Assembly (NCBI GenBank): GCA_029259935.1
Contig: JAJDEH010000379.1
Location: 1-56,270, forward strand
From: Planctomycetota bacterium
GTDB taxonomy: Bacteria; Planctomycetota; Planctomycetia; Pirellulales; Pirellulaceae
Length of the DNA: 56,270 bases
Direction: 5' to 3'
Under the pieces are notes generated by a model. It ran no database searches, had not been told where the DNA came from, and was given only the letters and a program-made list of their open reading frames with translations. This document shows, in pieces, positions 39,037 through 44,660 of the stretch; position 1 is the first letter of the stretch, and each line of letters begins with the position of its first letter. A program made the position numbers and the translations under genes.

Positions 39037-39252
39037 TCAGCCAGTCCTTCGTCTATAGCCACTGTTTGTGTCTATCGGCATTTTGCCGACTGCCGCAATA
39101 TCCGTCTACCGACGTCAGCACATTAGCCCGTGCCCGCCCGACCCGAATATTCAGCACTAGCGGAGAATTATCCGCAATCGACATCAATTCGTCGTCAACG
39201 ACTCTCGCGATTTCGGCGGCAAAGTGCCACAATAAGTTCAGGTGCTGTTGCC

Positions 39253-42200
39253 ATGGGGGCGAAGCCGTTGCTTCCGACTAGCCCCACGGGTGGTGGGCAG
39301 GACCACGGAGACTGGCACTATTCTTCCAGTCAAGACGAGTCACGTCCCACAGGTCATCGAGTGTTTCAGGTCACCTTACCACCAGATCGAGTTCTCCGGG
39401 AAGACGGGAGCAAGGACGCTGGCTGGTGGCACGCCGTCGAGGATGACGACCGGATTGCCTGCGATCTATGCCCGCGCGACTGTCGGCTGAAACCGGGCGA
39501 CCGGGGGTTCTGCTTCGTTCGCGAAAATCGCGACGGCCAAATGATACTCAGCACTTACGGACGTAGTACCGGTTTTTGTATCGATCCCATCGAAAAGAAA
39601 CCGCTGAATCATTTTTATCCCGGCACCAGCGTGCTGTCATTCGGCACGGCGGGCTGTAACTTGGGATGCAAGTTCTGTCAAAACTGGGATATTTCCAAAT
39701 CGCGCGAGGTCGAGCGGCTGAGCGAACTGGCCACGCCCGAGGCGATCGCCCAAGCGGCCCAGAAAACGGGCTGCCACAGCGTGGCGTTTACTTACAACGA
39801 CCCCGTGATTTGGGCTGAATACGCCATCGACGTGGCGGCCGCTTGCCACGAGCTGAATATCAAGACCGTGGCGGTCACCGCGGGTTACATTACGGATGTC
39901 GCGAGAGCGCCTTTTTTCCAAACCATGGACGCCGCCAATGTGGACTTAAAGGCGTTCACCGAGGACTTCTACTACCGGCTGACGATGTCGCATCTCGAGC
40001 CCGTGCTTGAATCGCTGCGTTGGCTGAAACACGAAAGCGATGTCTGGTTCGAGATTACCAACTTGATCATCCCCCGATCCAACGACTCGACGGACGAACT
40101 TCAGCGCATGTGCGACTGGGTGTTGGAAAACGTGGGAGACGAAGTGCCGATTCATTTCACCGCCTTTCATCCCGATTTCCGCATGCAGGATGTGCCGCGC
40201 ACGCCTCACGAAACGTTGCTGGCCGCCCACGACATCGCCCGCCGCAAAGGAATCAAGTATGTTTACACGGGGAATGTTCACGACGTAGCCCATCAGAGTA
40301 CCTATTGTGGACATTGTGGCGAACTGCTCATCGAAAGGGACTGGCATCAGCTTGGCGCCTATCACCTGAACGGCAGTTGCTGCGGCCATTGTGGCGGCGA
40401 AATTGCTGGTCGGTTTGATGCGCAACCCGGCAGTTGGGGACGCCGGCGTTTGCCGGTCAATATCTCTCAGTATTCACAGCCAATTCAAATTCAGTCAACG
40501 AGTGCCAGTACTAACACCGCCAACATCAATACCATGAATACATCTTCCGCGGTGACACCGACCGAACAGATATCGCAAATTGGTTCTTCGCAACAAACCG
40601 TAATCCACCGCGCCGCTTGCGAGATGATGGCCGCCGAGATTGCCGGTCGAGCGCCGAGCCTTCCCGATCCGACGCTGGACGGCACCGCCCAAGTCGACGT
40701 GATGGGAGCCTTTGTCACGGCGAAACGAGAGGGCCGGTTGCGCGGCTGCTGCGGGGCCTTGGGGCAAATCCTTCCCTTGATCGATGCCCTGCAATCCGCC
40801 GCGGCGCGAACCGCAACCCAAGACGTGCGTTTGCCGCCGATTTCGCCCACTGAACTGGCGCACCTAGAAATTGGCGTCACACTGCTGCACTCGTTTGTTC
40901 CCGTGAAGGCTGTCGGCAAGCAGCGAATCGCAGCGGTGGAAATCGGCCGTCATGGCCTGCAGATCGAGCGGGGTGGTAACCGTGGTCTGCTGTTGCCAAG
41001 CGTGGCCACGGAAAATGGATGGGATGCGGAGGAATTCTTGCGACAAGTTTCCCGCAAGGCGGGACTGCCGGTAACGGCATGGGAAGATGAGCAGGCACGT
41101 TTGGTCACCTTCGAAGGCTTGTATTTTTCCGCTCCCTTCGATTCACACGTCTTGCAATCCGTAAACGGGGCTCCGGCGATTTTGCCCGCGAGCGAACTAG
41201 AACTTCTCCGCCAGCATGTGCGGACGAACATCATGGCACTCGTTCAAGGCGCGACGCCCAACTACTACATGAGTGGAGTTTCGGATGGTACGGTTGCCGG
41301 CATTGCCATTAGCATGGCATTGCCGAGCGCCGCCGAACCGTTATACGTCAGCCAAACTTCGATGCGGCCCGGCATTCCTCTGCAGTCGTCTTTGTTCACG
41401 CTGTGCGAAGCCGCCGCCGGACTGCTTCAGAAAAAAGTCACGGCAATCGGCAACTTATCCGAATTGCGGGTCGGTGTGACCGTCCTTCACGACCCGGCCA
41501 TGCATGGAACTGTCCAACATCCCGACTTGCGCGGGTTCGCCGCCGGCCAACGCGCGATGATGGTGGTCGACCGGGGCAAGACGGCGTGGTCTTTTTACCC
41601 CGACCAGCCGGCGGAAGAGTTGCTGAAACATGTCATTGATCAAACTAAGGTGTCGTCGCCGCAATCGGCGGGCGTTTTTAGTTTCGCGGTCACTTCCACC
41701 GACCCTTCGATTACCATCAGCAGCGTACCTCTACCGCTGGCCGGACAAGAGCTGCGTCCGGCCGCCGTGGCTGGCACTTTCTATCCGGCCGATCCTCAAG
41801 AACTTACCGGTCTCGTCGACGAATTGCTGCGGAATGACGAGCCGGTAACTCAAGAAGAGTGGCCCGCTGTAATGGTTCCACACGCCGGCTTGAAATATTC
41901 CGGTAGGATCGCGGCGGAAGTGCTGCGGCGCATTCGATTTCCAGACACGGTGATTGTGATTGGGCCCAAGCATACTCGTTACGGTGTGGAATGGTCGGTG
42001 GCTCCTCATGAAAAATGGAGCATCCCCGGTGCCACGGTCGCTTCCGATCCGGCGTTGGCGGCGGAATTGGCCGAGGCCATCCCGGGACTGCAGTTGGATG
42101 CCGCGGCGCACCACCAAGAACATGCCATCGAAGTCGAATTGCCGCTAATTCATCATTTGGCACCTCAAGCTCGCGTGGTGGGCATCGCCATCGGCGGCGG

Positions 42201-42561
42201 CGACTTGGAACGCTGCCGGCAGTTCGCAACGGGACTGGCCCAAGTCTTGCGCCGCCGAGATCCGCGGCCTTTGATCGTGATTTCCAGCGATATGAACCAC
42301 TTTGCGACCGACGCGGAAAACCGGCGTCTCGACGAAATGGCGCTGGGCGCTCTCGATCGATTGGATCCCGCCGAACTGTATCGGACGGTGACCGAAAATC
42401 AAATTAGTATGTGCGGCGTGTTGCCCGCGGTGATCACGTTGGAAACAATGCTTCAGTTGAACTCACTCAGCACCGCCCAGCGCGTCGCCTACGGCACCAG
42501 CGCGGATGTGACGGGCGAAAAGAGCCGAGTCGTTGGTTACGCAGGAATGCTCTTCGGTTAA
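39253..42561 (+). CDS. AmmeMemoRadiSam triple fusion: radical SAM - AMMECR1 (- AMMECR1-like) - MEMO
   Basis: A 1102-residue protein carrying all modules of the AmmeMemoRadiSam system. (1) Radical SAM enzyme (about 40-400): a front Cys cluster C70/C73/C77, the [4Fe-4S] motif C135xxxC139xxC142 in GTAGCNLGCKFCQNWD, and a C-terminal CGHCGE...CCGHCGG zinc-ribbon-like pair. (2) AMMECR1 domain (about 450-626) with the hallmark RGCCG (497-501). (3) Residues about 643-820 look like a second, degenerate AMMECR1 copy (LRVGVTVLH matches LEIGVTLLH of the first; RGCxG is lost). (4) MEMO domain (about 834-1102) with metal ligand candidates in VPHAGL, GPKHTR, SSDMNH and MCGVLP. The system's reaction is unknown. 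A 215-bp gap separates it from murB; the ATG at 39253 is chosen, but an in-frame GTG at 39130 cannot be excluded. Only 11 nt precede the secA-like gene. Confidence 0.92.
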   Translation: MGAKPLLPTSPTGGGQDHGDWHYSSSQDESRPTGHRVFQVTLPPDRVLREDGSKDAGWWHAVEDDDRIACDLCPRDCRLKPGDRGFCFVRENRDGQMILSTYGRSTGFCIDPIEKKPLNHFYPGTSVLSFGTAGCNLGCKFCQNWDISKSREVERLSELATPEAIAQAAQKTGCHSVAFTYNDPVIWAEYAIDVAAACHELNIKTVAVTAGYITDVARAPFFQTMDAANVDLKAFTEDFYYRLTMSHLEPVLESLRWLKHESDVWFEITNLIIPRSNDSTDELQRMCDWVLENVGDEVPIHFTAFHPDFRMQDVPRTPHETLLAAHDIARRKGIKYVYTGNVHDVAHQSTYCGHCGELLIERDWHQLGAYHLNGSCCGHCGGEIAGRFDAQPGSWGRRRLPVNISQYSQPIQIQSTSASTNTANINTMNTSSAVTPTEQISQIGSSQQTVIHRAACEMMAAEIAGRAPSLPDPTLDGTAQVDVMGAFVTAKREGRLRGCCGALGQILPLIDALQSAAARTATQDVRLPPISPTELAHLEIGVTLLHSFVPVKAVGKQRIAAVEIGRHGLQIERGGNRGLLLPSVATENGWDAEEFLRQVSRKAGLPVTAWEDEQARLVTFEGLYFSAPFDSHVLQSVNGAPAILPASELELLRQHVRTNIMALVQGATPNYYMSGVSDGTVAGIAISMALPSAAEPLYVSQTSMRPGIPLQSSLFTLCEAAAGLLQKKVTAIGNLSELRVGVTVLHDPAMHGTVQHPDLRGFAAGQRAMMVVDRGKTAWSFYPDQPAEELLKHVIDQTKVSSPQSAGVFSFAVTSTDPSITISSVPLPLAGQELRPAAVAGTFYPADPQELTGLVDELLRNDEPVTQEEWPAVMVPHAGLKYSGRIAAEVLRRIRFPDTVIVIGPKHTRYGVEWSVAPHEKWSIPGATVASDPALAAELAEAIPGLQLDAAAHHQEHAIEVELPLIHHLAPQARVVGIAIGGGDLERCRQFATGLAQVLRRRDPRPLIVISSDMNHFATDAENRRLDEMALGALDRLDPAELYRTVTENQISMCGVLPAVITLETMLQLNSLSTAQRVAYGTSADVTGEKSRVVGYAGMLFG

Positions 42562-42572
42562 ATCAGTTCAAA

Positions 42573-44660
42573 ATGCTAGGCACTCCCTCTAGTTCACGCC
42601 GGTTTGGCGGTTTGCGGAACGTCCTGTTTGGCGGCAGGGCGGGACGTCGGCTGGCGCGCTGGTCGCGGCAATTGGCGAAGATCGCATCGCACGAAAGCGA
42701 ATTCAAAGCGCTAAGCGATGACGATCTGCGAAAACATAGCTTGTCGCTGCGCTACGAAGCCAAAAGCGGAGTTCCCTTGGCCAAGCTGCTTGCGCCCGCC
42801 TTCGCGCTGGCCCGTGAGGCTGGTTGGCGGACGCTCAAGATGCGGCATTTCGACGTCCAGGCCATTGGCGGGATCTCGCTGTTCAACGAGTCGATCGCCG
42901 AAATGGCGACCGGTGAAGGAAAGACGCTGACCGCCACGTTGCCGCTGTACCTCTACGCCTTGGTGGGCAAGGGCGCGCACCTCGCCACGGTGAACGACTA
43001 CCTGGCCAAGCGGGACGCCGAATGGATGTCGCCCCTGTACGAAATGTTGGGCATGACCGTCGGCATCATCGAATCGGACACCACCCGCGAAGACCGCTGG
43101 AAAGCCTACTCGAGCGACATTACTTACGGCACCGGCAAAGAATTTGGTTTTGACTTCCTCCGAGATCAATTGCTGCTGCGCCAACTGGGCGATGAAGAAA
43201 AAGCGGGCATTCGCAAATCGGCGTCGACCGATATTTCCAAAGAGCCGATCGCGGGCGAGCCGTTTTTCGTGTTGATTGACGAAGCGGATAGCGTCCTCAT
43301 CGACGAGGCCCGCACGCCGTTGATCATCGGTGCCTTCGACGAAAGGCGACGCGAGCAACTGGCTGCCTGCTATCAATGGGCCGCCGTCGCGGTCGGCCAA
43401 TACAAAGAGGTCACGCATTACAAGTACGACCACGAGAAGAAGAAGGTCGAACTGAATGGCTCCGGCCGCGAACTGATGCGAACCATCCCCACGCCGAAGA
43501 TCATGAACGCGGTCGGGTTGCTGGAACTGTACGAATTCACGGAACGAGCCATCAAGGTCCAGCGTGACTTCCGGCTCGATCGGGAATATGTAGTCCGCGA
43601 TGGCGAAATCGTCATTGTCGACGAGTTCACCGGCCGCTTGGCGGAAGGCCGCAAGTGGCGCGACGGCATTCATCAGGCGATCGAAGCCAAGGAGAAGGTC
43701 GAGGTCACGGTCGGCACCGGGCAGGCCGCGCGGATCACGGTCCAGGATCTCTTCATGCGATACGAACACATGGCGGGCATGACCGGAACCGCGACGACCT
43801 CGGCCCGTGAGTTCAAGAAGGTTTATAAACACACGGTCGTTCCGATTCCCACCAATCGGCCGATTATCAGAAAGCGGCTGCCCGAGCGCGTGTTCGCCAA
43901 AAGCGACGACAAGTGGCTGGCCATCGTCCAGGAGGTCAAGGAGATCCACGAACAGGGCCGCCCCGTGCTGATCGGAACGAAGTCCATCGACCGTTCTCAA
44001 TATTTGTCGAAATTGCTTATCGAAGCTGGCATTCAAAAACACGCTGTTCTGAACGCCCATCAAGTGGCGGAAGAAGCCATGATTGTGGCTCAAGCGGGCC
44101 GTGTCGGCGCGGTTACGATCGCCACGAACATGGCCGGCCGCGGAACCGACATCATCCTCGGCGGTAACTCGGAAACGCTGGCGCTCATGGTTCTGCAACG
44201 ACAAGGCTATCAATCCCGTCTGCAGGTTCCCAGAGAGCTATGGGAAGAAACGGTCCAGCGGATTGAAGAGCATGAGAAGATGGAGCAACAAGGCGCTTCG
44301 GTTCGCGAAAATGGCGGCTTGCACGTCATCTGCAGCGAGCTGCACGATTCACTGCGCGTCGACAGGCAACTGATGGGCCGCAGCGGCCGCCAAGGCGATC
44401 CCGGTACCGTGCGTCAATATCTTGCGTTGGAAGACGATATTATTAGGAGTGGTTTTGGCCCCAAGCGGGCGAAACGTATTCGTGCGCGAAACGGCAAAGG
44501 CGAACTGGGGCAAACCACGGCCAAGCTGTTGCAAACGGCCCAACATCGGGTGGAACGAGAGCACTTGCGGCAGCGAATTTTGCTCAACTACCACGAGCAG
44601 CAACGTAAGAAGATGTTCACCGCCATGGGGCAAAATCCCTATCTGGACGTTCCGCAATAG
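42573..44660 (+). CDS. Short SecA paralogue (SecA2-like preprotein translocase ATPase)
   Basis: A 695-residue SecA-family motor. The motifs are intact: MATGEGKT (Walker A), the preprotein-binding domain, LIDEADSVLIDEARTPLII (Walker B and linker), AGMTGTA, TNMAGRGTDI and GRSGRQGDPG. After the helical scaffold start (LLNYHEQQRKKMF) it ends, so the usual helical wing end, C-terminal linker and zinc-binding tail are absent; ordinary SecA is about 800-1000 residues. This suggests an accessory SecA with another housekeeping SecA elsewhere. It starts 11 nt after the AmmeMemoRadiSam gene and probably shares its mRNA. An earlier in-frame start at 42411 lies inside that gene and is rejected. Confidence 0.88.
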   Translation: MLGTPSSSRRFGGLRNVLFGGRAGRRLARWSRQLAKIASHESEFKALSDDDLRKHSLSLRYEAKSGVPLAKLLAPAFALAREAGWRTLKMRHFDVQAIGGISLFNESIAEMATGEGKTLTATLPLYLYALVGKGAHLATVNDYLAKRDAEWMSPLYEMLGMTVGIIESDTTREDRWKAYSSDITYGTGKEFGFDFLRDQLLLRQLGDEEKAGIRKSASTDISKEPIAGEPFFVLIDEADSVLIDEARTPLIIGAFDERRREQLAACYQWAAVAVGQYKEVTHYKYDHEKKKVELNGSGRELMRTIPTPKIMNAVGLLELYEFTERAIKVQRDFRLDREYVVRDGEIVIVDEFTGRLAEGRKWRDGIHQAIEAKEKVEVTVGTGQAARITVQDLFMRYEHMAGMTGTATTSAREFKKVYKHTVVPIPTNRPIIRKRLPERVFAKSDDKWLAIVQEVKEIHEQGRPVLIGTKSIDRSQYLSKLLIEAGIQKHAVLNAHQVAEEAMIVAQAGRVGAVTIATNMAGRGTDIILGGNSETLALMVLQRQGYQSRLQVPRELWEETVQRIEEHEKMEQQGASVRENGGLHVICSELHDSLRVDRQLMGRSGRQGDPGTVRQYLALEDDIIRSGFGPKRAKRIRARNGKGELGQTTAKLLQTAQHRVEREHLRQRILLNYHEQQRKKMFTAMGQNPYLDVPQ

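Follow-up and report, generated by a model that had tools for sequence, protein, structure and literature searches.

The AMMECR1, MEMO and radical SAM families of the AmmeMemoRadiSam system have, to our knowledge, no established joint reaction, and a planctomycete gene that appears to encode all three raises the question of whether one polypeptide really houses the whole system and what an apparent second, degenerate AMMECR1 copy contributes to it. Excerpts of published work describe AMMECR1 as ranging from bacteria and archaea to humans, with a change in its LRGCIG motif tied to a human developmental disorder (PMC5502304), and MEMO1 as tied to cancer, its molecular function being called unknown there (PMC11081632). 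The gene lies in a stretch of 56,270 nucleotides from a Planctomycetota bacterium, analysed as a whole and called the window below, and has the following features:

39253..42561, forward strand: whole fused gene, 1102 residues from ATG, with an alternative GTG start at 39130
39424..40464, forward strand: R, radical SAM domain (TIGR04337, 597.5 bits)
40591..41142, forward strand: A, AMMECR1 domain with intact signature (Pfam, NCBIfam)
40741..40755, forward strand: RGCCG motif, residues 497-501 of the window chain P0001 (translation)
41170..41748, forward strand: A', second AMMECR1-like domain without the signature, a probable pseudo-domain (hhalign, fold, lost residues, dN/dS, tree)
41755..42555, forward strand: B, MEMO domain (TIGR04336) with predicted iron ligands H877, H907 and C1054 (NCBIfam, Pfam, alignment)

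The frame at 39253-42561 (forward strand) runs through 1102 codons without a stop and can be extended upstream to the GTG at 39130; since residues 1-37 have a pLDDT below 50 in the predicted structure, the true start is uncertain. A search with NCBIfam and Pfam profiles yields, in this order, R, A, a segment without a Pfam match and B, the Pfam families found being PF04055, PF01871 and PF01875. All three families exceed their curated cut-offs: TIGR04337 scores 597.5 bits (cut-off 220) and is accompanied by C135xxxC139xxC142, TIGR04335 scores 125.1 bits (cut-off 99) with RGCCG at 497-501, and TIGR04336 scores 256.7 bits (cut-off 26) with a His-His-Cys metal set. An earlier note, made from the sequence alone, had read CxxxCxxC, RGCCG and MEMO ligand motifs (H877/H907/C1054 here) as the complete AmmeMemoRadiSam system in one chain; these motifs and scores, all in one frame, bear it out, and the hidden frameshift that it had considered is absent, no break being found in the window.

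R holds further cysteine sets near its N-terminus (C70, C73, C77, C87) and C-terminus (C352, C355, C377, C380), and the columns of all three sets are at least 95% conserved in 33 chains, as are R497, C499 and G501 of A. Weaker profile matches of R are to glycyl-radical activases (PFLA, E 1e-13). Among solved AMMECR1 structures, A matches 1vaj, 1zq7 and 1wsc in sequence; these archaeal proteins, deposited as being of unknown function, are also the fold relatives of A', which lacks their AMMECR1 signature. Residues H877, H907 and C1054 of B align with H49, H81 and C244 of human MEMO1 (7kq8), which is unfused, unlike the window chain; excerpts of the MEMO1 report state that these three residues bind iron and copper and that dioxygenase activity was not found by its authors (PMC11081632). 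The segment at residues 643-820 is AMMECR1-like both by profile-profile comparison with hhalign and by predicted fold, in agreement with its first description as a degenerate AMMECR1 copy; computation shows it to be an AMMECR1 homologue, and we do not class it as a functional AMMECR1. Prediction of the full chain gave a pTM of 0.61. Compared with the separate-gene system (TIGR04335/04336/04337), the window thus holds the same three families, all above curated cut-offs, but joined in a single chain that carries an additional AMMECR1-like domain. As a whole, including a role for A' and a mechanism, the best explanation is probably a single-chain AmmeMemoRadiSam system with the layout R-A-A'-B.

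This layout recurs widely. Among 40 protein relatives found with the middle region (P0002-P0041, domain order checked), 29 are R-A-A'-B and 11 lack R. We also examined 100 loci, namely the 80 top-ranking among no fewer than 588 loci from a genome-contig scan and 20 from a phylum sample. A' is present in 48 of them: 34 are R-A-A'-B (R being truncated at the contig end in L019, L022 and L027), L020 is a four-domain locus with a broken MEMO frame, 11 have R apart and two are cut by a contig end. That 40 relatives share the middle domain and 34 of 100 loci a four-domain ORF speaks against chance or assembly. The window chain is an ordinary member of the planctomycete R-A-A'-B chains (L001, L005, L026 and the 29 proteins above), with the same domain order, a similar size and a top MEMO identity of 66%, to L001. 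A' and B share an ORF in all 48 A'-bearing loci, as does A except in the two loci cut by a contig end; A-A'-B is the constant core of the planctomycete-type clade, and R can be a separate gene. Where R is apart, its ORF is visible within the locus (L028, L035, L055, L094), the split from A in L028 being perhaps a recent frameshift, or lies elsewhere in the genome, as found in all seven genomes searched (L032, L033, L047, L049, L051, L056, L060); three of these seven distant matches (G303, G304, G307) carry one stop codon in the read-through. Because R is separate in 11 of the 48 loci and the chain has two AMMECR1 folds, the fixed 1:1:1 stoichiometry earlier deduced from the fusion is unsupported.

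Neither L036, an R-A-B locus in which R runs off the contig, nor L029 (A-B) contains A', which is thus dispensable somewhere. P0162 has A-A' without MEMO and looks like a cut fragment; the search for stand-alone A' covered 7993 candidates sharing most words, at limited length. In one phylum, MEMO occurs in 177 of 294 sampled genomes and A' in at least 7, a lower bound since at most 10 first-look candidates were scored per genome, so that the fusion appears to be a minority form even within the phylum; in six of the seven, among them G002 (from L050, Rhodopirellula sp. JC639), A' lies within ORFs of 1058-1112 residues. Three further observations concern these relatives. P0033, excluded from one relative set, carries an intein (PF14528, PF14890) in its radical SAM domain, apparently just before the third cysteine of CxxxCxxC, R being detected as two pieces flanking it. 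L023 is a record named Rokuibacteriota with a typical planctomycete chain, reflecting mis-binning or transfer. Of ten genomes searched, two carry a separate AMMECR1 in addition to the fused one (G301:C1:432998-433510 and G309:C452:16173-16673, frames of 210 and 196 residues).

The MEMO tree was built from 99 rows, namely the window and 98 loci with MEMO matches above 215 residues, which excluded L020 and L041. Its 50 A-(A')-B rows fall into a single group (SH-aLRT 99 by a quick method) of records mostly named Planctomycetia, plus Phycisphaerae, Verrucomicrobiia, one Brocadiia (L022) and one Rokuibacteriota (L023). In the tree of A and A' domains, A' is one group (support 100) and the next set adds eight A domains of the same clade (98); this tree uses 170 columns, its domain is highly divergent and it is rooted at the midpoint, so long-branch attraction is possible. 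The grouping fits one tandem duplication within the clade, after which R became a separate gene in some members and A' was lost from others; the likely origin of A' is such a duplication, occurring once among the A domains of the A-(A')-B clade.

Other fusion orders exist. L074 and L076 (both in Bacteroidales) and L085 are B-A-R; such fusions resemble the window in joining the three families, but the order is reversed, A' was not detected in them and they fall elsewhere in the MEMO tree. Of 7999 candidates scored in a search for relatives of L076, the 120 listed comprise 70 B-A, 47 B-A-R, 2 A-R and 1 R-B-A. The earlier statement that the three families are usually separate genes was overstated, as it passed over the common B-A and the other triple fusions. 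A third arrangement is seen in P0098 (845 residues, R-B-A), the one exception among the three-part chains examined here, nearly all of which have A in the middle; it refutes the idea that A is always central. In L085 (G229:C11, 2566-4869), AMMECR1 matches profile positions 1-103 of 168 only, so R was seemingly joined onto a shortened A. In L081, L082 and L083, stop-to-stop frames of 894-927 residues end in MEMO, with about 630 preceding residues that have no profile match and, in L081 and L082, no Pfam match either.

How might the parts work together? The earlier note suggested that a substrate passes from radical SAM to MEMO. In a possible scheme, a PflA-like R would place either a radical or a modified, bound group at the AMMECR1 site, close to the invariant RGCxG residues Arg and Cys; A would then hand this radical or group to the His-His-Cys iron site of MEMO, which would finish the redox step. 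The position of A between R and B in most three-part chains makes it the likelier bridge, although the B-A-R order may merely copy operon order, and the R-B-A exception has lowered our estimate of A as a relay a little; we regard this chemistry as doubtful. A somewhat better-placed competitor, which we hold to be a real possibility though not the favoured one, casts R as a maturase of the PflA type that makes a one-time modification to a residue in A or B, no small molecule passing from R to B. The activase matches of R favour it, as does the separation of R in 11 of 48 A'-bearing loci with A-A'-B staying joined, a repeated separation that is also compatible with a pathway enzyme; against it, the argument is one of family resemblance, we know of no R-modified residue in A or B, and a maturase tethered to its sole target would have roughly one turnover per chain, a mildly unfavourable feature. 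The gene neighbourhood offers no pointer to a substrate, as no neighbour family recurs: only three of the 13 window neighbours have any homologue in the fetched loci, each in at most two, and no family is found in more than five of the 49 A'-bearing loci, window included. The SecA-like gene at 42570-44660 of the window (SecA_DEAD, PP_bind and P-loop domains), whose start possibly lies 9 bases past the fusion stop, has no homologue beside the relatives in these loci.

The role of A' can be approached through what it has lost and kept. In the 33 four-domain chains (the 34 R-A-A'-B loci minus L019, L022 and L027, plus L020 and the window), columns conserved at 95% or more number 130 in R, 26 in A, 43 in B and none in A'. 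The R, C and G of RGCxG and the H of HG are each kept in 0 of 42 A' copies, and the P of LLP in one, scored at those positions of A on which 93% or more of 46 A domains agree; hhalign confidence is low near RGCxG, so that single A' positions there may be off. The 42 copies are the window, 38 of 43 stretches and three divergent ones (L011, L012, L022, L058 and L061 were left out). For A' aligned from 41 sequences, the match to A domains from other groups reaches just 15.9%. Nevertheless, dN/dS of A' is 0.05-0.33 over eight pairs, exceeding that of A in seven yet well below 1 (the widest pair, dS 1.7, is close to saturation), and computation thus shows A' to be retained by purifying selection. 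Such values, together with the loss of conserved columns, suggest that A' is kept for its shape more than for AMMECR1 chemistry. We hold with good confidence that it is a pseudo-domain with a scaffold role, likely a non-catalytic partner that packs on A and positions A and B.

It is rather unlikely that A' has instead been repurposed, its AMMECR1 fold having gained a new site and serving to bind a ligand or to regulate. Purifying selection is consistent with this, and among 39 Planctomycetia-type copies Q711 is kept in all, G666 in 38 and D678, V681 and G752 in 37 each, with 16 columns at 80% or more; Gln711, Asp678, His751 and Arg767, conserved in Planctomycetia, give A' a residue signature of its own, which counts against a pure spacer, since a spacer needs none. 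However, A' has no column at 95% in the 33 chains, and even without the two deepest ones (L024, L025) it has 5, one of them invariant, compared with 29 such columns in A, 23 of them invariant. Considerably less probable, and best regarded as speculation, is a reading in which A and A' would form a pseudo-symmetric heterodimer that freezes an otherwise transient AMMECR1 pair. A' would then act as the pivot while the invariant Cys of A ferries the radical SAM product from R to the MEMO iron; if true, the fusion would reveal within one chain how AMMECR1 and MEMO cooperate in any organism that has both.

An unrelated fold merely resembling AMMECR1 in the middle segment is very improbable: no Pfam match up to E 10 was found in the window or in seven of eight relatives (the eighth had a single chance match, E 0.054), nor any to PF01871 at that limit in the window or all eight, the gathering score being missed throughout, but the hhalign and fold comparisons both indicate AMMECR1. 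An assembly, frameshift or gene-call artefact is barely conceivable, since frame breaks affect some relatives (L020 in MEMO, possibly L028 between R and A) and not the open frame of the window, and the layout is repeated in 34 loci of many assemblies, 29 of 40 proteins and 6 of 294 genomes of one phylum.

The radical SAM domain of "Memo-Ammecr1 systems" is mentioned in an excerpt of a paper that cites Burroughs 2019 for it (PMC7159879). The fusion layout has already been named automatically, several relatives being labelled AmmeMemoRadiSam by JGI or NCBI. The 2019 source is presumably the JBC paper on the PCAD-Memo superfamily, which reportedly makes links to base and isoprenoid modification and may describe some of these fusions. 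The added piece here is the A' pseudo-domain, of which the searched portions of the literature on AmmeMemoRadiSam, or on AMMECR1 with MEMO, MEMO1, radical SAM or planctomycetes, yielded no description. A natural single chain indicates which parts belong together and puts them into one construct that can be assayed anaerobically and studied structurally, an experimental handle more than a surprise in itself. Humans carry two of the three families, and such a protein would be convenient for establishing what the families do.
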